From: Candidatus Omnitrophota bacterium | GTDB lineage: Bacteria > Omnitrophota > Gorgyraeia > B26-G9 | Length of the DNA: 38,791 nucleotides | NCBI GenBank assembly: GCA_018895275.1 | Contig: JAHIOQ010000115.1 | Span: forward strand, 1-38,791 | Direction: 5' to 3' | In this document: positions 271 to 38,791 of the stretch, piece after piece | Layout of the letters: every line of letters begins with the position of its first letter | Numbering within the stretch: position 1 is the stretch's first letter | The notes under the pieces: generated by a model | Database searches by the model: none | What the model saw: the letters and a program-made list of their open reading frames with translations, nothing else | What the model was told of the DNA's origin: nothing | Translations under genes and position numbers: made by a program

Positions 271-2390
271 TGCGACTAACTGATAACGAAAGACGAGATG
301 CGATAAAGTATATTCAGGACGGGAAACCTTTGCCTGAAAAATATCGGTTTCTTTTATTTGCTGATGAGCGGGAAGTTGAGCTTGTCTGGAACGGTAAGAC
401 ACAAGAGGCTTGTAATCTTGTTTTACCGTTTCAAACAATAGAACATATTGATGAGCCGAGAAGTGAAAGGATAGCCGGTAAAGAAAAGCAGTACGAACTT
501 TTTGATACATCGGGCAGACAGATAAGAGGATGGACAAATAAACTTATCTGGGGAGATAATAAGCTAATTCTTTCTTCTCTTAAAAATGGCCCTATGCGTC
601 AGGAAATTGAGAGGCAAGGGGGATTAAAATTAATTTATATTGATCCTCCGTTCGATGTCGGCGCGGATTTTTCTATGAACGTTGAAATTGGCGATGAATC
701 ATTTACAAAGAAACCCTCAGTTATTGAAGAAGTTGCTTATCGGGATACATGGGGTAAGGGCGCAGACAGTTTTATTGCCATGATTTATGAGCGATTAAAA
801 CTTATGCATGGATTGTTGTCGGATGATGGCACTATTTATATTCACTGCGATTGGCGAGTTAGTGGATATTTAAGACTTGTTTTAGATGAAATTTTCGGGA
901 AGGAAAATTTCCTAAATGAAATTATATGGGCGTATTTTGCTTTTAAAAGAAAAACCAGTAAAAAATTTCCACAAAAACACGACTCTATTATATCTTATAG
1001 AAAGACATCAGATAAGTTTATTTGGAATACTCAGTATAAACCGCATAATGAGGAATATCTTAAAAGATGGAAAAAAGATGAGAATGGGCGATTGTACCGT
1101 GATGATGTTAATCCTACAAAGGGCGGAACTAGAATTATTTATTTGGATGAATTAGAAGGTGATATAGTTGACTCTGTTTGGAATGATATCCCCCCAGTTA
1201 ATCCAGTAGCCAAAGAAAGAGTTGATTATCCAACGCAAAAGCCTGAAGCACTAATGGAAAGGATTATTAAAGCATCTACAAACGAAGGGGAAGTGGTCGC
1301 TGATTTCTTTTGTGGCTCGGGGTCTACCTTAGCCGTTGCTGAGAAATTAGGACGTAAATGGATTGGCTCAGACCTTGGGCGGTTTGCTATTCATACATCA
1401 CGAAAACGTCTTATTCAGGTTCAACGTGAAATGAAACAAGAAGGTAAAAACTTTCGTGCGTTTGTAATTCTTAATCTCGGTAAATATGAACGGGAACATT
1501 ATGTAGATGTTGATGTGGATTTTCGTGAGCAAGAACGGCAGAAAATCTTAAAACAAAAAGAAAGCCAATTTATTGAATTGATCCTTTCCGCTTATAAAGC
1601 TCAAGCTGTGGACTCTTATAATAATTTTGTAGGTAAAAAGCGTGATCGTCTTGTTGCTGTTGGTCCTATTAGTACGCCTGTTTCTTCTAAGTTTGTTGAT
1701 GAGGCAATTAAAGAGGCTAAGTCTAAGGGGATTACAAAATTTGATGTTTTGGGGTTTGATTATGAAATGGGGATTGATTTTTCCGAACTTAGCCGTCACG
1801 GTGTTGATGTGCAGTTTAAAGTTATTCCCCGAGAAGTTTTTGATCGTAGAGCTGTAGAAAAGGGACACGTTAAGTTTTATGATGTCGCATATATTGAAGT
1901 AAAACCAATTGTTAAAGGCCGTGGTAAAGATAAAATTATTACTATCGAATTATGCGACTTTAGTGTTTTTTATAATCAAGATAGCGTTGAAGAAACAGAA
2001 AGTTCTCTTAAAGAAGGTTCAAGTAAAATTGTGATTGAGAATGGTCAGGTTATAAAGGTTGCTAAAGATAAGAAGACTTCACTTGTGACAAAAGAAGTTT
2101 TAACCAAGAAATGGACGGATTGGGTAGATTATTGGTCGGTTGACTTTGATATGGAAAGCAAAAAGGAAATAGTTCGTGTGGTTGATCCAAAAACAGGGGA
2201 AGAAACAGAGGAATGGACCGGCGGATATATTTTTGAAAACGAATGGCAGTCTTTTAGGACAAAGAAAGACAGAAAGCTTGAACTCATTTCGGCGGAAAAA
2301 GAAGTTTCCAAAGGACGGCGAAAGATCGCTGTCAAAGTGGTTGATATTTTTGGCAACGATACGACAAAAGTAATAGAGGTTAATATTTAA
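270..2390 (+). CDS. Type III-like DNA (adenine-N6) methyltransferase, Mod subunit
   Basis: A 706-residue site-specific DNA methyltransferase. The catalytic motif DPPF is near residue 125 and the AdoMet-binding motif FCGSGST near 347, preceded by TQKPEALMERII. This order (catalytic motif, target-recognition region, then AdoMet motif) is that of beta-class N6-adenine or N4-cytosine enzymes, which include type III Mod subunits. The segment of about 215 residues between the motifs would hold target recognition. A C-terminal extension of roughly 290 residues (about 420-706) has no motif I recognise and could contact the Res subunit. The gene starts on the stop codon of the HTH gene and ends 2 bases before res, so modification and restriction should be made together. 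The recognition sequence cannot be read from the protein. Confidence 0.9.
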   Translation: MRLTDNERRDAIKYIQDGKPLPEKYRFLLFADEREVELVWNGKTQEACNLVLPFQTIEHIDEPRSERIAGKEKQYELFDTSGRQIRGWTNKLIWGDNKLILSSLKNGPMRQEIERQGGLKLIYIDPPFDVGADFSMNVEIGDESFTKKPSVIEEVAYRDTWGKGADSFIAMIYERLKLMHGLLSDDGTIYIHCDWRVSGYLRLVLDEIFGKENFLNEIIWAYFAFKRKTSKKFPQKHDSIISYRKTSDKFIWNTQYKPHNEEYLKRWKKDENGRLYRDDVNPTKGGTRIIYLDELEGDIVDSVWNDIPPVNPVAKERVDYPTQKPEALMERIIKASTNEGEVVADFFCGSGSTLAVAEKLGRKWIGSDLGRFAIHTSRKRLIQVQREMKQEGKNFRAFVILNLGKYEREHYVDVDVDFREQERQKILKQKESQFIELILSAYKAQAVDSYNNFVGKKRDRLVAVGPISTPVSSKFVDEAIKEAKSKGITKFDVLGFDYEMGIDFSELSRHGVDVQFKVIPREVFDRRAVEKGHVKFYDVAYIEVKPIVKGRGKDKIITIELCDFSVFYNQDSVEETESSLKEGSSKIVIENGQVIKVAKDKKTSLVTKEVLTKKWTDWVDYWSVDFDMESKKEIVRVVDPKTGEETEEWTGGYIFENEWQSFRTKKDRKLELISAEKEVSKGRRKIAVKVVDIFGNDTTKVIEVNI

Positions 2391-2392
2391 TA

Positions 2393-5098: not shown

Positions 5099-5130
5099 TG
5101 ATAAAGTGAAAAGTCTTAATGGAGGATAAA

Positions 5131-7770: not shown

Positions 7771-8900
7771 AAATAATTTCACGCGGAGAAGATAGTAAGC
7801 ATCAATTTAAAGGGGATGTTAATAATATAATTTCACTTGCGCAGGAAATGACCGCATTTAGTAATTCCGGCGGAGGAAAAATATTTATTGGGATAAGTGA
7901 TGCTGGCGAGATTGCAGGCCTCTCTTTTGCTGACATGAATAGGTTGAATGGCCTTGTGTCTAATGCCGCATCACAGCATGTTCGGCCGCCTATTAATCCG
8001 CAGACAGAAAATATTGCTTTACCTAACGGATTGGTTATGGTTGTTACGGTTTTGGACGGAATAAGTAAGCCGTATATGGATAATCAAGGTGCAATATTAG
8101 TTAAGAGTGGTGCAGATAAACGAAAAGTTACGGCACGCGAAGAAATGCAACGCATGTTTCAGAGTGCCGGATTAATACATGGAGACGAGATCCCTGCCAA
8201 TGGGATAACTGTTGCCGATGTAGACCTTTCTTATTTTAAAGACTTTTTTGAGCGTGAATATGGGGAGAAGTTGGATGATCAAGATATCCCTTTGCCAAGT
8301 ATTCTTGAAAACATGAATTTATTAAAAGATGGCATTTTGAATATAAGCGGCGCTTTGCTTTTTGCCAAAAATCCTCAAGTAAGGCTTCCAATCTTTATCG
8401 TTAAAGCTGTCTGTTATCCTGATAATATAATAAATGAATTAGAATATTTAGATAGCCAGGACATTGCAGGGAAATTGGCGGATATTTTTCAAAAAAGTTT
8501 AGGTTTTTTGATGAATAATTTAAAGCGTGTGCAAGGAGATAGAAATGTTAATGCTCCGGGGGAGCCGGAAATTCCTAAAGAAACACTGGAAGAGTTATTA
8601 GCTAATGCTTTAATTCATCGTGATTACTTTATTTCTGCTCCAATTCGAGTTTTTGTTTTCAGAAATCGCGTGGAGATAATTAGCCCTGGTCATTTACCTA
8701 ATAATTTAACGATTGAGAATATAAAGAGCGGGAACTCGAATATCCGCAATCCAATATTGGCATCATACGCAACTAAAATGCTTCCTTATAGAGGGTTGGG
8801 GACTGGAATAAGAAGAGCCTTGCAAAAATATCCTGAAATTGATTTTGAAAATGATTTTGATGGAAATCAATTCAAAGTGATAATAAAACGTAAGGCGTAA
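7749..8900 (+). CDS. AlbA_2 (Schlafen-type) ATP-binding protein
   Basis: A 383-residue protein with an N-terminal AlbA_2/Schlafen-like domain. Residues 9-50 contain HQFKGDV, MTAFSNSGGGKIFIGISD and the following GEIAGL. The C-terminal half has the ELLANALIHRDY box and a PGHLPNN loop typical of the HATPase_c_4 domain found in this family. Related proteins occur as putative transcriptional regulators and in phage-defence islands; some Schlafen AlbA domains act on RNA, but nothing here shows that directly. It starts inside the PHP-ATPase gene with a 22-base overlap and an AAAGGAG sequence about 11 bases upstream, so the two are translationally coupled. It is the last gene of the defence-type operon. 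Confidence 0.85.
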   Translation: MEITELLEIISRGEDSKHQFKGDVNNIISLAQEMTAFSNSGGGKIFIGISDAGEIAGLSFADMNRLNGLVSNAASQHVRPPINPQTENIALPNGLVMVVTVLDGISKPYMDNQGAILVKSGADKRKVTAREEMQRMFQSAGLIHGDEIPANGITVADVDLSYFKDFFEREYGEKLDDQDIPLPSILENMNLLKDGILNISGALLFAKNPQVRLPIFIVKAVCYPDNIINELEYLDSQDIAGKLADIFQKSLGFLMNNLKRVQGDRNVNAPGEPEIPKETLEELLANALIHRDYFISAPIRVFVFRNRVEIISPGHLPNNLTIENIKSGNSNIRNPILASYATKMLPYRGLGTGIRRALQKYPEIDFENDFDGNQFKVIIKRKA

Positions 8901-14972: not shown

Positions 14973-16025
14973 ATGATGAAAATAAACGACTTGGTTAAAC
15001 AGACAAGCGGGTGGCTTAAAGGCGTAGGCCCTAATTCGGAGATTGTTTTTTCCAGCCGGGTGCGTCTGGCTAGAAATCTGGAAAAAGTTCTGTTTTCCAA
15101 TTGGGCGGATAAGGAGAAGCAGGAAGAGGCGTTGGCAATACTGGAGCCTACGGTAAACGCGCTGGAGCAGATAAAAGACAATGGATTGTATTTGAAAATG
15201 AACGATGTTTTAAATGTTGATAAACAGTTCCTGGTCGAACGGCATCTTATCAGCCGGGAACATATTACTAAGTCCGGAGCAAAGGCAGTGGTGATCAGCG
15301 CTGATGAAACGCTTTCCATAATGCTTAATGAGGAAGATCACCTGCGTATACAAATCCTTTTACCCGGATTTGCGCTGGATGAGTGCTGGAATAAGATCGA
15401 GCAGTGCGATACTGCTTTGGAGAAGAAATTGAGCTTTGCTTTTTCAGCCAAATGGGGATATCTTACCGCTTGCCCGACAAATACCGGAACCGGGATGCGC
15501 GCGTCCGTGATGCTGCATTTGCCGGCGCTGGTGATGACAAAACAAATTAACCGGGTGATACAGGCGATTGTTAAGCTCGGTTTGACCGTGCGCGGATTGT
15601 TCGGCGAAGGAACGGAAGCGGCGGGAAATATCTTTCAGATATCCAACCAGGTTTCCTTGGGCCGCAGCGAAGAAGAGATTATAGATAATATAAAGCGGAT
15701 TATCAATCAAGTGATTGAGTATGAGCAGAATGCGCGGCAGGTACTCTGCACGAAAAACACCAGCAGTTTAGATGACCAGGTATGGCGTTCCTACGGCATC
15801 CTGAAAAATGCGCATATTATATCCAGTTCGGAGACAATTGAATTGCTCTCTAATGTGCGGCTGGGCTGTGACGTCGGATTGATTAAAGGCCTGACGCGGG
15901 AAGTTATTAATGAGCTTTTTATCCTTACGCAGCCTGCGCATCTGCAAAAACTGGAAGGAAAGACGCTTAATGCGCAGCAGCGTGATGTGAAACGCGCGGA
16001 ATTGATTCGGGACAAGATAAAATAG
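14973..16025 (+). CDS. mcsB: McsB protein-arginine kinase
   Basis: A 350-residue phosphagen-kinase-fold enzyme that phosphorylates arginines on damaged or aggregated proteins, marking them for ClpC. Nucleotide-binding arginines lie in SSRVRLARN (residues 27-35), the acidic NEEDHLRIQ box follows, and the kinase signature CPTNTGTGMRAS starts at C167. The C-terminal domain has the GLFGEGTEA and NQVSLGRSE loops. Key residues appear intact. A GAGGAG sequence lies upstream; the tandem ATG at 14973/14976 leaves the exact start uncertain by one codon. It sits 27 bases before clpC. Confidence 0.95.
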   Translation: MMKINDLVKQTSGWLKGVGPNSEIVFSSRVRLARNLEKVLFSNWADKEKQEEALAILEPTVNALEQIKDNGLYLKMNDVLNVDKQFLVERHLISREHITKSGAKAVVISADETLSIMLNEEDHLRIQILLPGFALDECWNKIEQCDTALEKKLSFAFSAKWGYLTACPTNTGTGMRASVMLHLPALVMTKQINRVIQAIVKLGLTVRGLFGEGTEAAGNIFQISNQVSLGRSEEEIIDNIKRIINQVIEYEQNARQVLCTKNTSSLDDQVWRSYGILKNAHIISSSETIELLSNVRLGCDVGLIKGLTREVINELFILTQPAHLQKLEGKTLNAQQRDVKRAELIRDKIK

Positions 16026-16052
16026 AAATAAAAATTCAAAGGAGGATTTGCA

Positions 16053-18494
16053 ATGTTTGATCGATTTACGGAGCGTGCGCGAAAAGTAATTCTTTTGGCT
16101 AAAGAAGAGGCAAAACGGTTTAATCACGATTATATCGGTACGGAGCATATCCTGCTCGGGCTTATTAAAGAAGGCGAAGGCGTGGCCGCTGCCGTATTGC
16201 AGAATCTGGATCTTAATCTCGATATTATTCGCCTTGAAGTGGAGAAACTGGTTCAGCCCGGCCCAAGCATAGTAACGTCGGGAGATATTCCGTTTACACC
16301 GAAAGCAAAAAAAGTTATTGAGTTGGCGATGGAGGAGGCAAGGAGCCTCGGCCATAACTATATCGGTACGGAACATCTTTTACTCGGTTTGATCCGGGAA
16401 AATGAAGGTGCAGCTTCGCAAGTGCTGTTAAATCTCGGGCTGGATTTAAATAAAGTGCGTAAAGAGATAATGGAACTGCTGGGAACTTCGGCGGCCAATT
16501 ATGACCCCGGGCAGGCGGCGCAGGCCAGCCAGGCGGGGAAGGCGAAGACGCCCGCTTTGGATGCCTTCGGCCGTGACCTTAATAAGCTGGCAAAAGAAGG
16601 AAAGCTTGACCCTGTTATCGGCAGAGCTATGGAGATAGAACGTGTAATCCGGATTTTAAGCCGGAGAACAAAAAATAATCCGGTATTATTGGGTGAAGCA
16701 GGCGTAGGCAAGACGGCGATAGTGGAAGGGCTGGCGCAACTGATTGTTTCCGGTAATGTCACTGAGGTGCTGCGAGACAAACGTGTTGTGGTGCTTGATT
16801 TGGCGCTTATGGTTGCCGGCACAAAATACCGCGGTCAGTTTGAAGAACGTATTAAAGCGGTTATGGATGAAATTAAGCGTTCTGAAAATGTGATGATTTT
16901 TATCGATGAATTGCATACGCTTGTGGGAGCCGGGGGAGCGGAAGGGGCGATTGATGCCTCGAATATTTTAAAACCGGCTTTGGCACGGGGGGAGATTCAG
17001 TGCATCGGCGCAACAACCATGGATGAGTATAGAAAATATATCGAAAAAGATGCGGCATTGGAGAGAAGATTTCAGACAATTCTTGTCGAGCCGCCTTCCT
17101 TAACGGAGACCGTGGAGATTTTAAAAGGCCTGCGTGATAGATACGAAGCGCATCACCGCGTGAAATATACGGATGAAGCGCTTCAGGCGGCGGCAAAATT
17201 ATCCGACCGCTATATCAGCGGCAGGTTTTTACCGGATAAAGCCGTGGATATTATCGATGAAGCCGGCTCCCGGGCGCGTTTACTGGTGATGACCGCGCCG
17301 CCGGACTTAAAAGACATGGAAAATAAAATCGAACAGCTTAGAAAAGAAAAAGAAGCGGCGGTAAAGGCGCAGGATTTTGAAAAAGCCGCTACCTACCGCG
17401 ACCAGGAAAAGGAAGCGCGCTCGCAGATGGAGAAGATCAGACGAAGCTGGAAGGAAAGCCGCATGGAAATGAGCGTTGAGGTTAAAGAGGAAGATATCGC
17501 GGAGATTGTTTCCCAGTGGACAGGCATCCCGATTGCCCGTTTGGAAGAAAAAGAAAGCGAGAAGCTTTTGAAAATGGAGGAAGAACTGCATAAGCACGTT
17601 ATCGGCCAGGAAGAGGCGATAACCGCGATAACTCATGCCGTACGCCGTTCACGTGCCGGGTTGAAAGACCATCGCCGGCCGATAGGTTCCTTTATTTTTC
17701 TCGGTCCTACCGGCGTGGGAAAGACATTATTGGGTAAGGCGCTGGCTGAATTTTTGTTCGGCGATATAGATGCGATTATCCAGATTGACATGTCCGAATA
17801 TATGGAGAAATTCAATGTATCCCGTTTAGTCGGCGCGCCTCCCGGATATGTCGGTTATGAGGAGGGCGGACAATTAACGGAAAAAGTGCGGAGAAAGCCG
17901 TATTCGGTTATTCTCCTGGATGAAATCGAAAAAGCGCATCCGGATGTGGTTAATCTTTTACTGCAGCTCCTGGAAGAAGGCCGGCTGACCGATAGTTTCG
18001 GCCGCAAGATTGATTTTCGCAATACGGTCTTGATTATGACCAGCAATATCGGGGCGGAACTTCTTCGCAAACAAGGGGCAATCGGATTTGCGTCCCAGGA
18101 AGACGAGGTAACCTATCAATCGATGAAAACTAAACTCATGGATGAGGTCAAAAAGGTTTTTAAGCCGGAATTCATTAACCGTGTGGACGATATTATTGTT
18201 TTCCGGCCGTTAACAAAAGAGGACCTCTATAAGATTATCGAGATAGAGATCTGCGAAGTTATGGAACGCTTAAGTGAACAGGAAATTAAAATTTCTCTGG
18301 ATAAAGAGGCGAAAGATTTTCTCATAACCAAAGGCTTTGACCTGGTGTTCGGCGCGCGGCCGTTAAAGCGTACGATTCAAAAATACCTGGAGAATCCCTT
18401 GGCGGAGGAAATACTGGGAGGAAAGGTTGACCGTAAAAAACCGATTAAGATTACCGCGGAGAAGGATAAAGAGGCCCTTGTTTTTTTAAGTTAA
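16053..18494 (+). CDS. clpC: ClpC, AAA+ unfoldase of the Clp protease
   Basis: An 813-residue Hsp100 protein. Two Clp N repeats (about residues 1-75 and 80-145) carry the paired [24 protein letters not shown] motifs, the region that binds arginine-phosphorylated clients in Firmicutes. The first AAA domain has GEAGVGKTA near 213 and [14 protein letters not shown]-containing middle domain with [14 protein letters not shown] marks ClpC rather than ClpB. The second AAA domain has GPTGVGKT near 551 and [13 protein letters not shown], then a C-terminal D2-small domain. It feeds unfolded proteins to ClpP, which is not in this window. AAAGGAGG precedes the start. Confidence 0.97.
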
Positions 18495-28901: not shown

Positions 28902-28930
28902 TTGACAATAATAAATGTGTATGCTATACT
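28902..28930 (+). promoter_or_regulatory. Sigma-70-type promoter for the structured leader
   Basis: TTGACA (28902-28907) and TATACT (28925-28930) with a 17-base spacer. Transcription would begin near 28937 and run through about 430 nt of structured, untranslated RNA before the terminator at 29332-29369. Confidence 0.85.
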
Positions 28931-28988
28931 TCTATTGTAAAATAGTAAAACATTTTAAAAAGATTTAATATATTTAACGAAACCGAAA

Positions 28989-29265
28989 ATCCGCTAATTG
29001 GCGGATCCGCCGTATAAAACGGCGGAGGCAAACTCTCCCGAATGTAGTTTCAGTATTAAGAAACGCATCGGGATCCCGAAGGATGAGCCGGAAAAAGGGA
29101 CATCATTCGGGGTGAGAAATCAGAGGACGTCCCGGATGTAGAACTGGTAAAAAGTTTTACATCGGGACCCCGAAGAAAGAGCCGGAAAAGGCAGCTTCAT
29201 TCGGGGCAAAGCTACGGGTCTAAAGCAAATAGCAATGATCGCCGGGCCTGTCATTCGAAGTTTGC
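28989..29265 (+). ncRNA. Structured leader RNA with a c-di-GMP-I (GEMM) riboswitch-like 3' half
   Basis: The 3' part (29203-29251) has GGGGCAAAGC, CTACGGGTCTAA and ATGATCGCCGGGCC in the order and spacing of the c-di-GMP-I aptamer. A GGAGGCAAACTCTCC element resembling its 5' half lies far upstream at 29023-29037. Between them are four hairpins: 29038-29072, 29075-29111, 29129-29168 and 29168-29206. The third and fourth repeat the first and second with a period of about 94 nt (shared AGCCGGAAAA and CATTCGGGG). Two further hairpins lie at 28989-29006 and 29007-29025. I infer a variant c-di-GMP sensor with an enlarged peripheral domain. The family assignment rests on recalled consensus and is not certain. 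Confidence 0.55.
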
Positions 29266-29331
29266 AGCAATGAGAAACTTGGTATGAGTGTAGAATGACG
29301 AATCGATAACGAGCTATTAATGCTAAGATTG

Positions 29332-29369
29332 CCGAGTTGCCGAATATAAAAAGCAGCTCGGTTTTTTTT
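29332..29369 (+). terminator. Intrinsic terminator after the structured leader
   Basis: CCGAGTTGC (29332-29340) pairs with GCAGCTCGG (29353-29361) over 9 bp, including one G-U pair, followed directly by eight T residues. It lies between the riboswitch-like RNA and the first secreted-protein gene, where an expression platform would be. Confidence 0.85.
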
Positions 29370-29374
29370 GTTCC

Positions 29375-29547
29375 AGGATGGAACAATCCCGCGTTACGAG
29401 TGCAGGATGCACGAGTGGCGGGATAAATGAAGGATGGAACAATCCCGCGTTACGAGTGGCAGGATGCACGAGTGGCGGGATGCACGAGTGGCGGGATAAG
29501 AGAAAGATGAAATATCCGCAGGATGTGCGATTAGAGCCGGATAAAGA
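29375..29547 (+). repeat. REP-like palindromic repeats, cluster 1
   Basis: Unit 1 (29375-29430) starts AGGATGGAACAATCCCGCG and ends GTGGCGGGATAAATGA; its ATCCCGC and GCGGGAT ends pair, with an inner GTGC..GCAC stem. Unit 2 (29431-29500) is the same unit with one extra copy of its distal end. Unit 3 (29505-29547) is degenerate. The spacing is irregular and there are no unique spacers, so this is not a CRISPR array. It lies between the terminator and the next gene. Confidence 0.8.
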
Positions 29548-29568
29548 TATAGCAGGGAGAGAAAAGAG

Positions 29569-30060
29569 ATGCGGAAGAATAACTGGTGGTTAAAATTACT
29601 AATTGTGATTGTTATACAGGCGTTGCTCTTAACGCAGGTTGATTTTTCCCTTGCCGCCGTGAGCCGGCATAAGGAACTCTCTCAAGAAATCTCCTTAAAA
29701 TTCCAGAATACCGCGGACAAGCGGACAAGTTTAATAAGTGGCATTGCTTGCGTTCAGTTTGTAATCGGCGGTGTCTTAATCCCACAGCTTAGTTTGAACA
29801 ACTGGTTTACCTTACTTAATATCTGCGTATCCGATACTTTTGGTAGATATAGCTTGCGTAATCTTAGTAATGATATTTATAAAGTTTTTAATATTAGCGG
29901 GATTGGTGTATTGGCTCCAGGTATCGTTATTGGTTGTTTATATGGAGAGGACAAAAAACCGGTTATATTGCTTGCAAGCAGAAATGTTGATGCCAGAGGG
30001 CCTCCGGTTACCGCAAATAATTTAAAGGGTAAAGCTTTAACCCGAACTATTGAAATTTAA
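29569..30060 (+). CDS. Small secreted hydrophobic protein, unknown function
   Basis: A 163-residue protein with a clear signal peptide: positively charged start, hydrophobic core and a likely cut after SLAA (about residue 28). The signal region, with VIQALLLTQVDFSLAA, is strikingly like that of the giant protein at 33336 (VMQAFILTLADVSWAA). The mature part has two hydrophobic stretches (about 48-65 and 105-122) and no motif I recognise. GGGAGAG lies upstream of the ATG. It is the first gene after the riboswitch-like leader and its own terminator overlaps its stop codon, so it may be a single-gene unit. Confidence 0.75.
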   Translation: MRKNNWWLKLLIVIVIQALLLTQVDFSLAAVSRHKELSQEISLKFQNTADKRTSLISGIACVQFVIGGVLIPQLSLNNWFTLLNICVSDTFGRYSLRNLSNDIYKVFNISGIGVLAPGIVIGCLYGEDKKPVILLASRNVDARGPPVTANNLKGKALTRTIEI

Positions 30061-30076
30061 TAGTTCGGGTTTTTTA
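30043..30076 (+). terminator. Intrinsic terminator at the end of the small secreted gene
   Basis: CCCGAACTATT pairs with AATAGTTCGGG over 11 bp around a 7-base loop, followed by a run of six T residues. It overlaps the last codons and stop of the preceding gene and should separate that unit from the PilZ gene. Confidence 0.88.
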
Positions 30077-30080
30077 TTTC

Positions 30081-30227
30081 AGGATGAAATAATCCCGCGT
30101 TACGAGCACAGGAAGTGCGAGTGGCGGGATAAATGAAGGATGAAATAATCCCGCGTTACGAGCACCCCGTAAATCTGCCTCTGGCAGAAACGGGGCAGGC
30201 AGGACGCACGAGTGGCGGGATGAGTGA
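30081..30227 (+). repeat. REP-like palindromic repeats, cluster 2 with nested hairpin
   Basis: Unit 4 (30081-30136) starts AGGATGAAATAATCCCGCG and ends GTGGCGGGATAAATGA, matching unit 1 of cluster 1. Unit 5 (30137-30227) has the same ends, but its loop holds an extra hairpin (30164-30194) in which CCCCGT pairs with ACGGGG around a TCTGCC/GGCAGA stem. Together with cluster 1 these repeats bracket the small secreted gene. Confidence 0.8.
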
Positions 30228-30243
30228 AAAGGAGGTGAATGCC

Positions 30244-30594
30244 ATGATGGAGAGAAGAAGAGCCGTAAGGAAAAACTTTACATGTCCTTTACAGGTACAG
30301 GCAATAAGCGGTGACGCAGGGAATTTTATGAGAAATTCTTTTTGCCGGAATATCAGTTTGTCGGGATTATCTATGACATCATTTGATTTCTATCCTGTTA
30401 ACGGCAATGTCCACCTTCAGATTTTTTCTGATGCCTGGATTAAATTGATTGAGGTTATCGGCCATGTGGTATGGGTAGAACAGCTGCCGTTCCAGAGTAA
30501 GTATAAAATTGGGGTTGAATTTATGGACAGGAGCAGTGAGATGGATCGGAGTATCAGCCGGCTATTGGATAGTGAAGATGTTCAAGGTGATTAG
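30244..30594 (+). CDS. PilZ-domain c-di-GMP receptor protein
   Basis: A 116-residue single-domain PilZ protein. The two c-di-GMP-binding motifs are intact: RxxxR as R5-R9 in ERRRAVRKN, and (D/N)xSxxG as NISLSG at residues 36-41. The C-terminal half has the usual beta-barrel features (IEVIGHVVWVE, YKIGVEFMD). I start it at ATG 30244, 8 bases after AAGGAGG (30229-30235). A longer in-frame start at 30133 lies in the palindromic repeat and would add 37 unlikely residues. It is 20 bases before the first paralogous secreted-protein gene, so it probably reports c-di-GMP to the secretion/surface system encoded behind it. Confidence 0.88.
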   Translation: MMERRRAVRKNFTCPLQVQAISGDAGNFMRNSFCRNISLSGLSMTSFDFYPVNGNVHLQIFSDAWIKLIEVIGHVVWVEQLPFQSKYKIGVEFMDRSSEMDRSISRLLDSEDVQGD

Positions 30595-30614
30595 TATTTT
30601 AAAAAGGAAGAGCC

Positions 30615-31313
30615 ATGAGTAAGGGTAGATTATATATTCCAATATCGTGTTTATTGTTACTGGTTGGGGTGCTGGTATACACCTTTTTATTTATTAGAAC
30701 AGGGAATTGTCAGCCTGTTGATGAATCGGCTCTTTCTCATCAGGACAAAATGAAGAATCCTTTAGCTAAGGAAACAGATAACAACAAAATAAATCAGGTT
30801 CCTTTCACTGGTTCTTCCGAAGAAGTACCGTTTGTCAGCGATGCGCGTGTTTCTAACGTTAAAGAAACGGTTGCGGGTTTAAAAGAGGCCGGGTATTCCC
30901 TGGAAGATGTTGTTTCAATCTTGAAAAATGATAATAAGGGCGCGCCGGAAATAAGTATTGCCTGTTTAAGCGCCGGATATAGCGGAACCAATATTTTTAA
31001 CGCGTTAAAGGAAGCCGGATTTTCGGGAAAGGCCGCGGAAGCTGCCGTACCTCCGGCGTTGAGAACGGAAGGACAGATTTTTTCCGTATACTTCGATAAA
31101 ACCGGCAAAGGTAATATTGACCGGACAGCGATGATCTCACCCAATCCGTTTAGTGACGGGAAGGTATTAACGACAACCGGTAATGTTTCAGCCGGAAATA
31201 GTACGGGGCAGGAAATAATCAATCCCGTACAGGTCAAGGTATCCGTAGGAGTTACGTTTAACGGATTAGGTGATTGGAATAAATTTCAAAACGAACGGTT
31301 CCAAAATCGATAA
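30615..31313 (+). CDS. Secreted/anchored protein with AGYS helical repeats (paralogue A)
   Basis: A 232-residue protein with an N-terminal hydrophobic segment (about residues 8-28) that is either a signal peptide or an anchor; no convincing lipobox is present. The middle (about 78-145) holds helical repeats: KETVAGLKEAGYSLEDVVSI, LSAGYSGTNIFNALKEAGFS and AAEAAVP. It continues with LRTEGQIFS and the short motif SPNPFS. The same order of blocks appears in the next protein, so the two genes are tandem paralogues. Family not recognised. GGAAGAG precedes the ATG. Confidence 0.78.
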   Translation: MSKGRLYIPISCLLLLVGVLVYTFLFIRTGNCQPVDESALSHQDKMKNPLAKETDNNKINQVPFTGSSEEVPFVSDARVSNVKETVAGLKEAGYSLEDVVSILKNDNKGAPEISIACLSAGYSGTNIFNALKEAGFSGKAAEAAVPPALRTEGQIFSVYFDKTGKGNIDRTAMISPNPFSDGKVLTTTGNVSAGNSTGQEIINPVQVKVSVGVTFNGLGDWNKFQNERFQNR

Positions 31314-31342
31314 AATAATAAAGAGAAAGGAGGATGAGTACA

Positions 31343-31909
31343 ATGATTAAGCGAAACTTACGCCTTGAGTGTATCGTTGCGCTTTGTATTCTCATCACTC
31401 CTTTTTGTTGTAAAGAGGCGGTGCACGGGCAAGAGCTAGTCCCCGGAGATGAACGGATGGAACATCAAACAATGGCAGATAGTGATTCTTCATCGGCGCA
31501 GACAGTTTCGGCAGGTCTTTTATCGGCAAAGGACAGCTTGCCATATGTTTCGGACGCTTCATCGATTGCTTGTACAAAGGAGACGGTAGAAGGATTGCGG
31601 ATGGCCGGCTATTCCTTAAACGAAATTGTCGACAATTTAGCGAAGAACGGAAATAATGCGCATACAATCAGTATGGCGCTTTTGAGCACTGGTGATTACA
31701 GCGGACAAGAGATTTATACGGCATTGTTGAGCAATGAAAAGTTTTCTAAGAGAGAAGCGGATGCCGCTGTTCCTTTAGGGATACGTAATGCGGGGCAGTT
31801 GTTTTCACCGTTTGGCAATAAAAATAATAGCAAATATGAAACTATGGCAGAAGACATCAGAATTCAACCGAATCCATTTTCCTCGGAGGAAAATATCACT
31901 GATTTATAA
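31343..31909 (+). CDS. Secreted protein with AGYS helical repeats (paralogue B)
   Basis: A 188-residue secreted protein with a signal peptide likely cut after AVHG. It repeats the layout of the preceding protein: LPYVSDASSIACTKETVEGL, LRMAGYSLNEIVDNL, YSGQEIYTALL, ADAAVP, RNAGQLFSPF and QPNPFS. I take the ATG at 31343, 9 bases after AAAGGAGG, because the in-frame ATG at 31334 directly abuts that ribosome-binding site. It is 29 bases after paralogue A and 14 before the next gene, so the cluster is clearly an operon. Function unknown; helical repeats suggest protein-protein contacts. Confidence 0.78.
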   Translation: MIKRNLRLECIVALCILITPFCCKEAVHGQELVPGDERMEHQTMADSDSSSAQTVSAGLLSAKDSLPYVSDASSIACTKETVEGLRMAGYSLNEIVDNLAKNGNNAHTISMALLSTGDYSGQEIYTALLSNEKFSKREADAAVPLGIRNAGQLFSPFGNKNNSKYETMAEDIRIQPNPFSSEENITDL

Positions 31910-31923
31910 AGGAGGGTAATGAA

Positions 31924-33300
31924 ATGAAAAAAAGAGAGTATATAATAATTTGTATGGTAGTTATGATTGTTTTATCAGTGGCCTCAGATAGCAGCGGCGA
32001 GTGGCCCTTTAGCAGCAAAGGGACATTCGTATCACTCGAAAATACCGAGAAGAAAACAGAATCTAATGTTAATAACCCGATAGCGACAATCCCGGTCAGC
32101 CAGGACATATCGGTTGTTAATGGGACACAAGCGTCCTCTGATAATAGCCTGAGTCCGGGGACAACCGCGCAGGCGGTCGCTTCCGGGTATATTGAGAGCG
32201 GAAAGACAAAAGGTGAAATCATATCAAGCTTAATACAGATTGGGTATTCCCAGACAGAAGCGGAAATAGCTTATTCCAAGGCTTCCGTAAATTATGTAGT
32301 GCAGCCGCAGGCAGTGGTTGTAAGCGGCAGCATTGCATCAGCAGCATCAAGCGCATTAGAGGCTCAGACGGAGGAAACAATAAATACCGCAAATACCGTA
32401 GAACCGGTACAGCAGAAAACAGAAGAACTTAAACCTGCAGAGCAGAGGATTACCGAAGGGCTAGGGCAAAACATTCGTCCTCGCGGCAAGTTTGGGGCGA
32501 GAGTGAAAAACAACTATACCCAGGAAGGCAACATTGCCAAAGACATGCTCAACGAGGGATATACGGTTGAACAAATTGTCGACGGTTACGCGAAAAAAGG
32601 GTATGCCGGCGCTAAAATCGCGAAAATTCTCAATATAGCCGGAGTCAGCGCCTCTGACGCTTATCAGGCGTTAAGTACCGCGAGCATATCCAAGGCAGAA
32701 GCAGCAGTGTACACAATAAAACCAACGGGAAAATTTAAGAGTATTTTTAAGAGCATTATAAAAACACTAATCATTAAATTGGGACAGACACAGGAACAAA
32801 AGCTGGAAACCAGGGAAAATGCAGCCAGGCAGGAAGCGATAAAATCTACGGTCAATGAAATGCAGGCCGCCGGTTATGATATTAAGCCCGCTTTAGACAG
32901 CATTGTTCAAAATCTTAAGGATACGGGGATGTCCGCGCAACAGGCGAAGGATTTTCTTATCAGCAAGGTTGCCGACGGCAAGCCGCGGGCGAAATTCCAT
33001 GGCGGTTGGTTCATATCCCGTACTCAGCCGCGCATGACCTCAGCCGGAGAGGGGGAAATCAACCTGGCCGCGGCAATGCTGCAGGCAGGCTATTCAAAGG
33101 AAGAGGTACAAAGTACATTTGAAAGCAAAAGAGGCCGTTTTTACGTGGCTTATTCATATACGCCCGGAGCGATTACCGGGATAATGTCCGCGGCGGAAAA
33201 CAGAATAAACGGCACAAATCAGCCGCGGCAGACAACTAACACAAATACCCAATTAGAGAGTGATATTCTGAAACGCGCAACAAATGCGTTACCGATTTAA
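31924..33300 (+). CDS. Secreted multi-repeat helical protein, unknown function
   Basis: A 458-residue secreted protein with a short signal peptide (about residues 1-22). It contains at least four helical repeat blocks related to those of its neighbours: ASGYIESGKTKGEIISSL with GYSQTEAEIAY; LNEGYTVEQIVDGYAKKGYA with IAGVSASDAYQAL; MQAAGYDIKPALDSIVQNLK with GMSAQQAKDFL; and LQAGYSKEEVQSTF. The segments between are polar or basic, including RPRGKFGARV, KPTGKFKSIF and KPRAKFHGGW, which share a (P)xGKF-like pattern. AAGGAGGG precedes the ATG. It lies 36 bases before the giant gene and may bind or present it; this is inferred from repeats and position. Confidence 0.75.
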   Translation: MKKREYIIICMVVMIVLSVASDSSGEWPFSSKGTFVSLENTEKKTESNVNNPIATIPVSQDISVVNGTQASSDNSLSPGTTAQAVASGYIESGKTKGEIISSLIQIGYSQTEAEIAYSKASVNYVVQPQAVVVSGSIASAASSALEAQTEETINTANTVEPVQQKTEELKPAEQRITEGLGQNIRPRGKFGARVKNNYTQEGNIAKDMLNEGYTVEQIVDGYAKKGYAGAKIAKILNIAGVSASDAYQALSTASISKAEAAVYTIKPTGKFKSIFKSIIKTLIIKLGQTQEQKLETRENAARQEAIKSTVNEMQAAGYDIKPALDSIVQNLKDTGMSAQQAKDFLISKVADGKPRAKFHGGWFISRTQPRMTSAGEGEINLAAAMLQAGYSKEEVQSTFESKRGRFYVAYSYTPGAITGIMSAAENRINGTNQPRQTTNTNTQLESDILKRATNALPI

Positions 33301-33335
33301 CTTTTAAATGATTCAAATGTGCCGGAGGCCTAAAT

Positions 33336-36300
33336 ATGTATGACCAAACGAACAAATTATGGTTTAAGGCGATTGCCTTTATTGTTATGCAGGCCTTTAT
33401 CCTGACCTTGGCTGATGTATCCTGGGCGGCGAATTACCGTGAGAATAAAGGCTCTCAACAGATGGCGCTGGATTCCCAGAAGATAAAGGATGAACGCGAC
33501 AAGCTGTCGAAGGACGCGCTTAGTAACCAGTTTGTTCTTACACAGCCGGCAATGCCATATATGGGATTTGAGCAGGTGACAAGAAAAGGCGGGGCGGAAC
33601 CTTTGTCTTTAATCGATACGACAATAAGCGGGTTGTCGATTGCCGGCAATGACCTGGCGGACATATTTAAGGCCTTGAAAAGCTCGGGGTGTTCGGTCAG
33701 TGAGGCGGGATTCGGCGCTTTGCGCCAGGGATTTAATAAAAAAGAAATTTATCATGCCTTGATGAAAGGCGGTTATGATAAGGAAGAAGTAAAAAATCTG
33801 CTCGGCAGCCTATTGAAAGCGGAAGAGGAAGAAAAAGAAGAAAGCAAGAACAATGCGCTGCAAAAGACCGGCCCTCCGCAGGAAAAGCCGGAAGAAAAAG
33901 AAGCATCTAAAGAAGCGATATTCGAGCTCCCAAAAATTACCGACTCGCCGGTTGAGGAAAAGGCATCTAAGATTATAGAAAAAAGCCTAAACCAAGACGC
34001 GTTGTTCCGCCAGACTGTAGAATTTGTGCGGATCATGATTAATGAAGGCAAACGCGGAAAAGAATTGATCGATGTGCTCAAAAAGGCCGGGCTCTCCAAC
34101 GAGAGAATCATAACGGCATTGGCGCAACTGGGTTTTAATCTCAAAGATATCATAAATATATTTAAGGAAGCAAATATAAGCTGCGGGGATATCGTGCAGG
34201 CATTGCACAAGGCGCAGATCCGGTACTCCGATAAGGAGATATACGGCGCGCTTATAAAATGCGGTTATACGGAAGAAGATATTATTACCGCTTTTCGCAA
34301 TTCCGGCTTAAACGGTGAAGCGATACTTAAGATTGCCACGGAATTAAAGCGGGATATGGTGGAAGTCGCCAAGGCCATGGCCGCTTCCGGTTTCAGCAAG
34401 GCGGATATTGCCCGCGCCTATATCTTAAAGGCAATGCAGTGGACCTGGGACCGGACGGTAAACATCATCAACTGCGCGGTTAAGGCGTTTGACGCGTTTC
34501 TTACGAATATCGGCCGCAAATTTTCCTCACAGCAGGACCTTGCCTATTCTTTAATCGTTGACGACATCCTGGCAACCGGAGAAGTGGTTATTCAGGGCAA
34601 AGACGTAATGACCTCAATGCTGGCGATTAAAAATGTCGCGCGGCAGCACGGCATTGACCTGCAAGGTTATAATCTCACCCTGGAAAGCCTGCTTGAACTC
34701 AACGGTATGGCGGTTGTTCATCTCGACGGCGACCACTGGGTAAGCCTGGTAAGTATCGATGGGGACAATGTCACGATTATCGATAACGGCCAAAAACAGG
34801 TCATTTCGCTCACGGAATTCAAATTCCGCTGGGACGGAAATACCCTGGCAATCGCCAGGCAGAAAATACAGGAAGACCGGCTGCTGGATATGCAGATGCG
34901 CGAGATTCGCGGCGGACGCGGTATCGGGAGTGTCTTTAAATCGGTTGCTAAGGTATTTAAATCGGTCGTTAATGCAGTTGTTGAAGGGGTAAAGACCTTT
35001 GTTAACGGTATGATAAATGTTATCAAAGGTTCTCTTATGATGCTCACCGGAAACTTTAAGGAAGGTTTCTGGACAATGACCATGGGCACGATGCAGATGC
35101 TCTGCGCTCCGACGGTGGCATTATATCATCTCCTGCCGGAAAACGTGGCGCGGATTATCGGGCAGGTAATGAAGGTTATTTGTATTGCCGTGGGCACGAT
35201 TGTCGGCGGGATTATCGGAACATTCTGCGGCGGACAAACACAGTTGGGTATGGCGATTGGCGCTTTTGTCGGCACGATTGTCGGTTATTGCTTTGATTAT
35301 GATATGGTCATGGCCTGTAAAACGAGCAATATAGAAGATTTTAAGGTTCTCTTCAAAAGGATGATAATTGAGGCCACTGTCAATGCCGCGGTTGCCTTTT
35401 GCGTGGGCCATTTCGCAAAGGGGGCGCAGAATATTCAAGGCACATTAGGGTATACGGCTGGGCAAGGTTTTGCCGCGAATAGTGTTGGTGCGGCTATAGC
35501 GGGGGGGGCTTCCGGAGGTGTTTGGGGCGTTATCAGTGCGGCGGCAACGTCTACAGCAGTACAGACAATGGTAGTCAACACGGCGATTAATGCGGTTAAA
35601 CAAACGCTGGTTTCCTATGCCTTAACCGCGGTTACGAAAAATATTGAGAACCCATATCTGCGCGCGGCCATTATCGGCGCAGGCGGCGCTTGGGCCGGCA
35701 GTTCAGCGTGCAATGTCAGCTTTCAGAGCGGCGCTATGGAGTTTGGAAAGCTGATGACTGCGGAGATAGCCAAGAGTATGGTTGTCGGCGCGGTGACGAA
35801 TCTGGCCATGGAATCTATCCGGCAGGTAGGTTACAACAATAACTGGGATCCGTTGTTAATGGAGTGTGTTGCCTTGGCGGCCGGCACCGCGGCGCAATCA
35901 ATAGGCGGAGCGGCGCTTGGTTTTGATTATAAAAATAATAGCTATGGTCAATCTGATTTCAGCACGAGGTTGTCCAATAATTTGATGTCTTCACTCGGCA
36001 GCCTGGCCGGAGCTATTACCGCCAAATGCATGGAAAGAATATGCCGGGAAAGCGGCATGAGCCCGATATTCACCGGAGCGCTTGGGGCATTTTCTCAAAG
36101 CTTAATTACCGGCTTGACCAATGCGGCGATTGATCCTACGAAAAGTTTTTCCTGGACAGATGTAAGTGACGCCTTGTTCAGCGGCTTAGGAACCATGACC
36201 GCTATGGGCTACAAAGATTTGCTGATCCGTGAATTTGATTATACCGACATCAAGGCGTCTGAGGCAGCGTATAATCTGAGCGTTGTCTGGGATATTGCTT

Positions 36301-38791
36301 CTACAGGTTTTGGGAAAGATGTTAAAAAAGATCAGACTTATGACGAATTCGTTGCTACTTTGAGCAACACATTTGGATCTATAATCCAAACTCAGGTGCA
36401 ACGACAACTTGGTTTTACCACGGGTTATAGCTCGGGAAACGCGTATGAGCGCATGCAATATATTGATAGTTACAATAGTGAAATCGATAGCATGGATTAT
36501 ATGATGCACGGACAGGGCGAGATTAAGCTTGGCGCGGACGGCAGGTATTACAACGCCGACGGCAGTATCAACACCTATTGGACGCGGAACGCGGATAAGA
36601 CGGAATATTGGAATTACTGGAAGCAGGAAAAGCCGGAAATATTCGGGCAGCAGGCAGGAGAGGGCAGCGCCTCAACATCTACGAATATGAGCTTTGGCGA
36701 CGCGTGGTTGAGCACTATTTCTGCCCGGCAGTTAAGCTTTCAAAATACCGAAGCCCGGAAGAACTTTACTACAGGCTACATAGCTGCGGGCGCGGCTGTT
36801 TACAATACGTATTTAATGTATAAAGTTGATAATAAAATCAATGAATTTAATGCCTTCAGGGCTAATACAGGCCTTTGCGCGCTATTAGTTGATGGGAAAG
36901 TTGTAATTGAATTGGATGAAGCGGCGATTGCCGCGAATCCGGCGCTGCGCGAAGGCGCTCAACAAGAATTAATGAAGTATGGCGCTGGAGAAAACAGCGA
37001 TGCTGTTATTTTTGCCGATGCCGATGCTTTTTTGCGAGACAAAGCAGATTCATATTATACGAATACCGGAAATAATTCGCAATGGAAAACAACGCAAAAG
37101 CAGGATGTAATTATTAATGGCAAAGTAGTGGCTGCTCAGTTAAGCTCTTCAAGTTATCAGCGTCTTCTTGACCCGACAAATGCCGCGTTAAGTAATATAG
37201 CCGTAACCATGGACGTATTTAATATCTCTATTTTTGGCAATATTAGCGCGGCAGAGGGAGTAAAGTTTAATGCCTCGGCAATAGTAAATTATAACGCTGC
37301 ATTAGGAACATGGGAGGCAAGCAATCCTACTTTTCAAACCATTGACGGCAGTGGTTCTCTTGATTTGAGCATGACGCTGGATAATAAGGATAAGGTTTAT
37401 TTTACTGTTGCCAGCGGCTCAGGTATTCCGGATGACCCGGTTTTAATGGACGCAAGAACAGGAAAAGAGTACGGAAAAACCGCTTTAAGCGGCGTGGCAG
37501 CGCAATTGGGATTGAGCCAGTTAACTGAAAACTTGGGGGATACACAAGTTGGCGTGACACTAGACAGGAATGGCAGTCTTATTTTAACTAAAGAGTCGCG
37601 TGAAGCGGTAATTACTTCTTTAGCGAATTTACCGCTGGAGACAAAGAAATCTTTAGTTGAATCAATCGGTATAGATCTGCCAAACACCTGCGATCTGACA
37701 AAAGCGGATGTAACAATTATAGACACGGATTTTGGACAACAACTTGCAGTTGAAGAAAAAGGCCCGGACAGCCGGGCAATATCTAATGTTTTTGGCAGAG
37801 ACGGCTCTAAAATATCCACTGAAGGTAATGACGTATCCATAATATATCGTCGTGATGGCATGGCAATATTAGAAGGCACAAAGAAATTTGAGGTTATTGA
37901 TCCAGAAACCAAGGTTTTAAAAGTTGTTCAAGGAATAGAAATAAAAACCCCGGAAGGCAAGTCTTTTGTGCTTGAAAATGGCCAAAATTCCATATCCTTT
38001 CAGAGTACATTCTTTTCATCCCTTGGCCTTGCCGATGATAAACTGATAATTAACAAAGGTAGTATTGGTTATGTCTTAGCGGATTTTGATACGGGAAGAC
38101 CGTGGGATGAGCAAGGAAAGGTTGATTTTTCTGCTCTAAAACAACAGGGCGGCGCCGGTTCATCGGATAAGAATAGGGGGCAGGAGAGTCTAACTTTTAT
38201 TAAAGGAGATAATGGCAATGTCTGGGTAGCAGCGGGCAGTAAGTTTGCTTTTGGGGATAACGGCCAGTTTGCCATTGCCGATAATACAGCGGTTTATAAT
38301 AAGACGGGATTGGGGATAAGTATAAATGGGAAGGATATTGGGAAAGGCGGGGTGGTTGTAGAGGGAAATATTTTGCTAGAAAATAAATCTATTTCACGGC
38401 AATTAAAAGGATACGGTGATGTTGAACTTACTGCAACGACAAAATGTATAAAAAACCAAGAAGGACTTTACACGTTAGAAACGATATATGTAGACAGTGA
38501 GGGATATACTGCGATACCGGTAGCGCCGGGGCTGGATGGGAAGACGGTATTTGCGAGGATACAGGATGGCAAGACTTATTATTACGGCAACGTAAATGGA
38601 TTGAAGTTTGAGACCGAAGGATATGGCGGGTTCAAATTTACCGGGACATTACACAATGAAGCTACGAAGAGCGCGAACGGATTATATGAAATAAAGACAA
38701 CGACATATGTAGACAGTGAGGGATATACTGCGATACCGGTAGCGCCGGGGCTGGATGGGAAGACGGTATTTGCGAGGATACAGGATGGCAA
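33336..38791 (+). CDS. Giant secreted protein (partial, 3' end beyond window) with C39-like domain
   Basis: The frame is open from an ATG (GGAGG 7 bases upstream) to the window end, at least 1,818 residues without a stop. The signal peptide has a likely cut after SWAA (residue 33). Helical repeats of the cluster type follow (about 90-150 and 230-360, for example KKAGLSNERIITALAQLGF). A C39 peptidase-like domain spans about 378-505: NCAVKAFDAFL with C380, GDHWVSLV with H467 and TIIDNG with D483. The His-Asp spacing of 16 fits the family; the usual oxyanion Gln six residues before Cys is Thr. Next come amphipathic FKSVAKVFKSVV helices, a glycine-zipper hydrophobic region (about 615-655) and a long Ala/Gly-rich part. 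The distal part is beta-rich and has a 73-residue tandem repeat. Confidence 0.85.
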   Translation, partial: MYDQTNKLWFKAIAFIVMQAFILTLADVSWAANYRENKGSQQMALDSQKIKDERDKLSKDALSNQFVLTQPAMPYMGFEQVTRKGGAEPLSLIDTTISGLSIAGNDLADIFKALKSSGCSVSEAGFGALRQGFNKKEIYHALMKGGYDKEEVKNLLGSLLKAEEEEKEESKNNALQKTGPPQEKPEEKEASKEAIFELPKITDSPVEEKASKIIEKSLNQDALFRQTVEFVRIMINEGKRGKELIDVLKKAGLSNERIITALAQLGFNLKDIINIFKEANISCGDIVQALHKAQIRYSDKEIYGALIKCGYTEEDIITAFRNSGLNGEAILKIATELKRDMVEVAKAMAASGFSKADIARAYILKAMQWTWDRTVNIINCAVKAFDAFLTNIGRKFSSQQDLAYSLIVDDILATGEVVIQGKDVMTSMLAIKNVARQHGIDLQGYNLTLESLLELNGMAVVHLDGDHWVSLVSIDGDNVTIIDNGQKQVISLTEFKFRWDGNTLAIARQKIQEDRLLDMQMREIRGGRGIGSVFKSVAKVFKSVVNAVVEGVKTFVNGMINVIKGSLMMLTGNFKEGFWTMTMGTMQMLCAPTVALYHLLPENVARIIGQVMKVICIAVGTIVGGIIGTFCGGQTQLGMAIGAFVGTIVGYCFDYDMVMACKTSNIEDFKVLFKRMIIEATVNAAVAFCVGHFAKGAQNIQGTLGYTAGQGFAANSVGAAIAGGASGGVWGVISAAATSTAVQTMVVNTAINAVKQTLVSYALTAVTKNIENPYLRAAIIGAGGAWAGSSACNVSFQSGAMEFGKLMTAEIAKSMVVGAVTNLAMESIRQVGYNNNWDPLLMECVALAAGTAAQSIGGAALGFDYKNNSYGQSDFSTRLSNNLMSSLGSLAGAITAKCMERICRESGMSPIFTGALGAFSQSLITGLTNAAIDPTKSFSWTDVSDALFSGLGTMTAMGYKDLLIREFDYTDIKASEAAYNLSVVWDIASTGFGKDVKKDQTYDEFVATLSNTFGSIIQTQVQRQLGFTTGYSSGNAYERMQYIDSYNSEIDSMDYMMHGQGEIKLGADGRYYNADGSINTYWTRNADKTEYWNYWKQEKPEIFGQQAGEGSASTSTNMSFGDAWLSTISARQLSFQNTEARKNFTTGYIAAGAAVYNTYLMYKVDNKINEFNAFRANTGLCALLVDGKVVIELDEAAIAANPALREGAQQELMKYGAGENSDAVIFADADAFLRDKADSYYTNTGNNSQWKTTQKQDVIINGKVVAAQLSSSSYQRLLDPTNAALSNIAVTMDVFNISIFGNISAAEGVKFNASAIVNYNAALGTWEASNPTFQTIDGSGSLDLSMTLDNKDKVYFTVASGSGIPDDPVLMDARTGKEYGKTALSGVAAQLGLSQLTENLGDTQVGVTLDRNGSLILTKESREAVITSLANLPLETKKSLVESIGIDLPNTCDLTKADVTIIDTDFGQQLAVEEKGPDSRAISNVFGRDGSKISTEGNDVSIIYRRDGMAILEGTKKFEVIDPETKVLKVVQGIEIKTPEGKSFVLENGQNSISFQSTFFSSLGLADDKLIINKGSIGYVLADFDTGRPWDEQGKVDFSALKQQGGAGSSDKNRGQESLTFIKGDNGNVWVAAGSKFAFGDNGQFAIADNTAVYNKTGLGISINGKDIGKGGVVVEGNILLENKSISRQLKGYGDVELTATTKCIKNQEGLYTLETIYVDSEGYTAIPVAPGLDGKTVFARIQDGKTYYYGNVNGLKFETEGYGGFKFTGTLHNEATKSANGLYEIKTTTYVDSEGYTAIPVAPGLDGKTVFARIQDG
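38486..38791 (+). repeat. In-frame tandem repeat of 219 bp (73 codons) in the giant gene
   Basis: The 87 bases from 38486 to 38572 recur identically at 38705-38791, the last base of the window. Both copies encode YVDSEGYTAIPVAPGLDGKT followed by VFARIQDGK. The 219-base period keeps the frame. The intervening segment (TYYYGNVNGLKF...) is seen once. The perfect identity points to a recent duplication or ongoing homogenisation, and the array may continue beyond the window. Confidence 0.9.

Follow-up and report, generated by a model that had tools for sequence, protein, structure and literature searches.

The 38,791-nucleotide (nt) stretch of DNA analysed here, contig JAHIOQ010000115.1 of a Candidatus Omnitrophota bacterium (the window), carries an operon in which a riboswitch leader of the cyclic diguanylate (c-di-GMP) type precedes the gene for a giant, presumably secreted protein. 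We consider it probable that the operon is inducible by c-di-GMP, and that c-di-GMP probably turns on the giants that possibly predatory Omnitrophota are thought to use on other cells. A wider generalization is offered tentatively, as a possibility: many Omnitrophota giants would form one class that processes itself at a double-glycine site through a built-in C39-like peptidase, with synthesis in several families being a riboswitch decision in which c-di-GMP means ON and, in the window's family, involving competition between two copies of the aptamer 3' half. The source is a metagenome-assembled genome (MAG) of 2.56 Mb in 163 contigs, and the features of the operon, including its open reading frames (ORFs), are as follows.

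28902-28930, + strand: sigma-70 promoter TTGACA-N17-TATACT (TTGACA 28902-28907, 17-nt spacer, TATACT 28925-28930), read directly
29020-29345, + strand: c-di-GMP-I (GEMM) riboswitch aptamer with inserts, from covariance models, laid out by comparison with relatives
29237-29311, + strand: 'decoy', a further copy of the aptamer 3' half that lies within the P3 loop, from relatives and pairing analysis
29327-29344, + strand: true aptamer 3' half (GATTGCCGAGTTGCCGAA), also the 5' arm of T1, with 10/10 P3 pairs
29331-29369, + strand: intrinsic terminator T1, a hairpin (29331-29361) followed by a T run, -15.6 kcal/mol
29569-30060, + strand: small secreted protein (predicted), 163 amino acids (aa), from the ORF list, its N-terminus resembling that of the giant
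about 30039-30075, + strand: intrinsic terminator T2, a hairpin with a T run, conserved in 8/8 operons
30244-30594, + strand: single-domain PilZ protein, by profile match, with RxxxR and NxSxxG intact
30615-31313, + strand: helical-repeat protein R232, from comparison with relatives and predicted structure
31334-31909, + strand: helical-repeat protein R191, homologous to R232 (31% identity)
31924-33300, + strand: helical-repeat protein R458, from the ORF list and relatives
33336-38791, + strand: N-terminal part of the giant secreted protein (predicted), its ORF open at the contig end
33609-34433, + strand: two arrays of 10-residue helices in the giant with a 14-aa period (aa 92-175 and 208-366), from an AlphaFold2 model
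34434-34856, + strand: C39-like peptidase domain of the giant (Cys380, His467, Asp483), by profile, fold and conservation
34881-34916, + strand: double-glycine-type motif LLDMQMREIRGG of the giant, directly after the C39 domain, by motif analysis

Judged by its sequence, the leader RNA is a c-di-GMP-I class riboswitch. The region 29180-29255 matches RF01051 at E 2.3e-4 over the whole genome, its 31.8 bits falling short of the gathering score of 35, and in a permissive Rfam scan RF03167 (c-di-GMP-I-GGC) matches 29181-29345 with 28 bits (E 4e-4). A covariance model of eight relatives, built without the window, gave 49.4 bits (E 3.7e-12) at 29183-29344; most of the member sequences of this family model pass the Rfam cut-off on their own. 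The default Rfam scan of the window returned no match at all and passed over the riboswitch because inserted hairpins, two within P2, two in the P2-P3 junction and one in the P3 loop, split the aptamer. Its landmarks are GGCAAAC at 29027-29033, where position 20 is a G, the GAAA loop of P2 at 29113-29122 and the 5' strand of P3 at 29210-29220. The positions that we take, from the Vc2 structure, to contact the ligand (G20, the first A of GCAAAGC, the C of the 3' GCC and a GNRA loop in P2) are present as G20 in GGCAAAC at 29027, GCAAAGC at 29206, TTGCCGAA at 29337-29344 and GAAA at 29116-29119. The ligand is presumably c-di-GMP. Signalling by this messenger is rich in these bacteria, with 17 GGDEF and 22 PilZ matches in the window's own genome and 7-18 GGDEF matches per genome in the ten genomes searched. 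Weak matches elsewhere in the leader, to sraL, CsrB, anti-hemB and others, were treated as chance. An A at position 20 was recorded in leaders L125, L126, L128, L129, L132, L142, L084, L086 and L093, which stand before f18 giants and other genes.

Aptamer and expression platform overlap, with the 3' half of the one serving as the 5' arm of the terminator of the other. This arrangement, with at least 8 pairs, recurs in 39/39 leaders, nine of the window's family and 30 others, compared with 35% of controls in which the downstream sequence was shuffled; an initial, weaker pairing cut-off was reached by 54% of shuffles, and the value for at least 8 pairs is used instead. Since a ligand that holds the 3' half blocks the terminator, an ON switch is predicted, in which c-di-GMP would turn the gene on. 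Such a prediction follows the usual logic of overlaps between aptamer and terminator.

The association of riboswitch and giant extends beyond the window's family. A profile of the C39-like domain (A1) matched in 195/384 Omnitrophota genomes, usually once and often in very long ORFs of up to 57,756 aa. Outside the family, the first 80 matches by score were taken as a sample of giants, blind to riboswitches, with one domain per ORF and one site beside a contig start left out, and up to 7 kb upstream of each (0.49 Mb in total) was searched with Rfam under the thresholds of that database. This placed a c-di-GMP-I or c-di-GMP-I-GGC riboswitch upstream of 30/80 giants, a sample that includes the roughly eight loci in which the pairing was first noticed. 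All 30 lie on the sense strand, against about 1.1 expected on both strands; the background was 71 above-cut-off matches in 19 genomes (about 33 Mb). The distance from riboswitch to giant ORF is mostly 35-190 nt. By family, the riboswitch is present at 23/23 loci of f3, 6/9 of f18 and 1/1 of f10, and at 0/47 of all others together. The count is dominated by f3, so the conservative number is four families, the window's included, and not 30 independent events.

Within the window's family, giant homologues with up to 66% identity occur in other genomes, and the shared order is ROK-family gene, membrane protein, riboswitch, small secreted protein, PilZ, one or two R232-like proteins, R458-like protein and giant. 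The initial annotation, a reading of this DNA from its letters and ORFs, had let its proposal depend on the recurrence of this neighbourhood in other Omnitrophota, and the order is indeed present, complete or in contig pieces, in eight genomes (G001, G002, G003, G004, G006, G007, G010 and G011). A ninth, G008, lacks the PilZ and repeat genes; what it keeps is the small secreted protein, the giant and a remnant of the riboswitch. A search with a single protein found four relatives, all of them Omnitrophota MAGs. Omnitrophota giant ORFs are those longer than 20 kb; the window's ORF is cut by the contig end at 5.4 kb and those of its relatives are also cut, the longest at 4,984 aa; with giants running off contigs in these operons, repeats probably break the assemblies. 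The suggestion that a c-di-GMP riboswitch sets expression of the operon is thus supported, on comparative sequence evidence, by the conserved neighbourhood, by GEMM elements before giants in three further families and by the uniform platform.

The window's promoter has counterparts in the relatives, whose leaders carry comparable TTGACA/TATACT pairs at the equivalent place. Downstream of it, on the + strand from 28902, follow a leader of about 600 nt, the small secreted protein, PilZ, three repeat proteins and the giant ORF; on its 5' side lie cysS, a ROK-family gene and a gene for a 94-aa membrane protein. The components named in the initial annotation (promoter, riboswitch leader with terminator, small secreted protein, PilZ protein with its motifs, repeat proteins and giant C39-like ORF) all hold. 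Its description of the genes as mostly under 40 bases apart applies from PilZ to the giant, where the spacings are 20, 20, 14 and 35 nt, but not between the small gene and PilZ, which are separated by 183 nt containing the strong, conserved terminator T2. The PilZ gene starts at 30244, after AGGAGG, and not at 30133. GC-rich repeats, dispersed and tandem (of the ACGAGTGGCGGGATGC type), flank the small secreted gene at 29376-29500 and 30077-30230, making the distance to PilZ longer than it is in most relatives.

The P3 loop of the window's family contains a conserved GATCGCCGRGCG...YCGAYAAC element, which duplicates the aptamer 3' half. In the window it comprises GATCGCCGGGC at 29237-29247, an inserted hairpin and then AATCGATAACG up to 29311. 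Against the 5' strand of P3 this decoy forms 9/10 pairs in 14/15 leaders, including the window, and 8/10 in one, while the true 3' half forms 10/10 in all 15. We propose that the two copies compete. That the decoy serves as a second ligand-binding half is less likely, because several decoys (AUCGA) have a U in place of the C expected to contact the ligand, and none of them forms the last P3 pair. Leaders of pseudopilin genes, one of them in the window's own genome (L001), contain two near-perfect copies of the 3' half, with the distal copy in the terminator. This second c-di-GMP-I riboswitch of the genome lies before pseudopilin-like genes at L001 1430-1650 (G000:C4 about 66545-66770), and in relatives, loci L080, L107, L112 and L113 have like double copies before pseudopilin-like genes.

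We suggest the following sequence of events. At low c-di-GMP, the RNA segment that completes the aptamer would pair downstream, so that T1 forms and transcription stops; at high c-di-GMP, the segment would be held in the aptamer, T1 would be blocked and the small secreted gene would be transcribed. Read-through of T2 would then reach PilZ, the three helical-repeat proteins and the giant. T2 ends the small secreted gene in 8/8 operons, with stem sequences that differ between genomes and pairing that is kept. Given this conservation, the small gene and the genes from PilZ to the giant need not be one equally expressed unit, and T2 read-through would yield far more small protein than giant. The PilZ protein might add a c-di-GMP input at the protein level, and the giant might remove its N-terminal module by itself, either in the course of export or afterwards.

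Several observations weigh against a c-di-GMP-inducible giant. The pairing of GEMM with giants is restricted to four of the many giant-bearing families, loci within one family are not independent, and the giant of genome G064 has no riboswitch within 7 kb upstream in the Rfam scan. In G008, the leader has a degenerate P3 5' strand and the operon no PilZ or repeat genes, and the giant is nevertheless retained. T2 might in addition uncouple the giant from the riboswitch, which could then chiefly govern the small secreted gene, with PilZ and giant insulated behind T2 and their expression low and mostly constant. Such insulation would fit a strong terminator that still pairs in all eight operons although its stem sequence differs between genomes, but other families place the riboswitch directly before the giant ORF, the gap from T2 to PilZ is short in most relatives and leaves little space for an additional promoter, and G008 retains nothing but the small gene and the giant behind its leader; we regard it as improbable. 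Still less probable is that the ligand is another cyclic dinucleotide, for example 3',3'-cyclic GMP-AMP (cGAMP). An A at position 20 is a feature of GEMM-Ib RNAs known for cGAMP sensors, and leaders of f18 and several others have this A before GCAAA. In the window's family, however, the giant operons, that of the window included, have the G of the c-di-GMP type, and the complement of GGDEF and PilZ matches in the genome likewise speaks for c-di-GMP and not cGAMP.

The operon's PilZ protein matches PF07238 with 33.7 bits (curated cut-off 22.5), and its RxxxR and NxSxxG binding motifs are kept in 8/8 operon copies. It may set a second, protein-level c-di-GMP input; the control over the activity of the apparatus that the initial annotation assigns to it is a proposal, and that interpretation is thus supported in part. 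A bystander that acts elsewhere in the cell is the rather unlikely alternative: each genome has 6-37 PilZ matches, and outside the family the giant ORF mostly follows right after the riboswitch with no space for an intervening PilZ gene, but the position and motifs of this PilZ are constant in eight operons from several genera.

To describe the giant itself, we used an AlphaFold2 model of 560 residues, made with 11 sequences (mean predicted local distance difference test score 68, predicted template modelling (TM) score 0.49). The model shows a hydrophobic helix at the N-terminus, 10-residue helices that recur in arrays at 14-residue intervals, and a C39 fold. The C39 profile match scores 39.2 bits against a cut-off of 22. 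By Foldseek, the closest natural protein is 6mpz, the double-glycine protease of a peptidase-containing ATP-binding cassette (ABC) transporter (PCAT), with a target-normalised TM score of 0.71 and a root-mean-square deviation of 2.4; there is a sequence match as well. Cys380, His467 and Asp483 are kept in all family sequences that cover the domain. A Pfam scan of the longer giants detected nothing beyond C39 except sub-threshold matches. Directly behind the domain stands the double-glycine motif. In its strict form, such a motif lies within 60 aa downstream of C39 in 33/63 giants (0.06 expected) and in its loose form in 48/63 (4.8 expected), at a median of 21 aa after the domain; the spacing of the pattern was adjusted after the sequences had been viewed (an earlier spacing gave 8/63) and is partly fitted to these data, and relatives within a family are not independent in these counts. 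The fitted motif agrees with the known L...E...I.GG leader consensus. This motif, the distribution of the C39 domain among giants and the decoy copy in the leader are additions to the initial annotation. Cleavage sites of GG and GA type are both known (PMC9746304).

The signal-like N-terminus, the helical repeats and the C39-like domain with a C39-type motif right behind it are why the giant may cleave itself, and they suggest self-processing of giants by the C39 domain. Against cleavage stand two features of the domain. The canonical oxyanion Gln at -6 from the Cys is absent, the window reading DRTVNIINC, so that we term the domain C39-like and its peptidase activity is only predicted; and in several giant families the Cys is replaced by Ser. 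The domain could accordingly be a non-cutting docking or folding domain that binds the double-glycine helix, like the C39-like domain of HlyB, which is among the fold matches, or it could act on other proteins. With the motif retained in families that have lost the Cys, we see this as a substantial possibility, though the catalytic triad is retained throughout the window's family. The replacement (HFGxSAF motif) was noted in L016-L018, L022, L220-L222, L226-L229 and L231-L234, often with the downstream glycine motif kept.

Giant ORFs of Omnitrophota have been described as poorly conserved, with few annotated domains and a proposed role in contact with other cells (PMC10066038). Velamenicoccus archaeovorus LiM and its relatives, of the same phylum, likewise have very long ORFs of secreted or surface type (PMC10066038), and the C39-like domain of the window's giant recurs in the 39,687-aa ORF of G064, which is probably the LiM protein. 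That paper, whose text contains neither PilZ nor C39, differs from the present account in the shared C39 domain and cleavage motif and in the c-di-GMP riboswitch of four families. From signal-like N-termini and these published proposals for other giants we infer secretion, surface location and a part in predation or attachment.

Among known systems, cbpA of Bacillus thuringiensis is likewise a case in which a c-di-GMP riboswitch precedes a protein that is secreted or adhesive (PMC7423583), but the target here is a giant that includes a C39 domain of its own, and the P3 loop in the leader of the window's family contains the 3' half once more. PCATs and their double-glycine leaders share the C39 fold and the L...E...I.G[GAS]-type motif; here, peptidase and motif lie in cis on one polypeptide, whose N-terminus is signal-like and in which no ABC transporter domain was detected. 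In Lap-type adhesin control (LapD/LapG), a large surface protein is likewise under c-di-GMP control, with a cysteine protease taking part, whereas in this operon the riboswitch would act before translation and the protease domain lies within the giant; the Pfam scan found no LapD- or LapG-like domain among the operon proteins. Releasing peptidases of polymorphic toxins are similarly protease domains inside large secreted proteins that may release a part (PMC3482391), but the giant has an N-terminal C39 domain with an adjacent double-glycine motif, and no toxin domain or immunity gene was identified. Our literature search found neither a cis-acting C39/double-glycine giant nor, with preprints and many journals outside its scope, a paper naming both Omnitrophota and riboswitches. 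All parts belong to known classes; their combination and distribution were not found in the literature searched, and the novelty is provisional.

Omnitrophota giants are among the largest predicted proteins, and the link to a riboswitch makes their regulation testable outside an uncultured host, because RNA and c-di-GMP suffice. The shared C39-like domain and the cleavage motif next to it offer a common point of access to proteins that have been called poorly conserved. If the proposal is true, a second messenger that governs attachment in many bacteria would be tied to proteins proposed for attacking other cells.

The remaining products of the operon resemble one another or the giant. The small secreted protein matches the giant's N-terminus (E 2.3e-5), and the three proteins encoded at 30615-33300 have repeats related to one another. 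R232 has a hydrophobic N-terminal helix, four predicted 10-residue helices at a 14-aa period and a C-terminal motif of the GLGNWxxFQxxRF type; its model had no significant match in a fold search. A conserved VSVGVxFxGLGNWxxFQxxRF motif stands at the end of most R232-type proteins (window 31230-31310 and homologues).

Elsewhere in the window, positions 270-8900 encode in succession a DNA methylase, a ResIII helicase/nuclease subunit, an AAA_21 ATPase and a Schlafen AlbA_2/RecG-C-like protein, a cluster with a restriction- or defence-like appearance. At 14973-18494, an McsB-like ATP:guanido phosphotransferase adjoins a ClpC-like ATPase; such arginine-phosphorylation/Clp pairs are known above all from Firmicutes.

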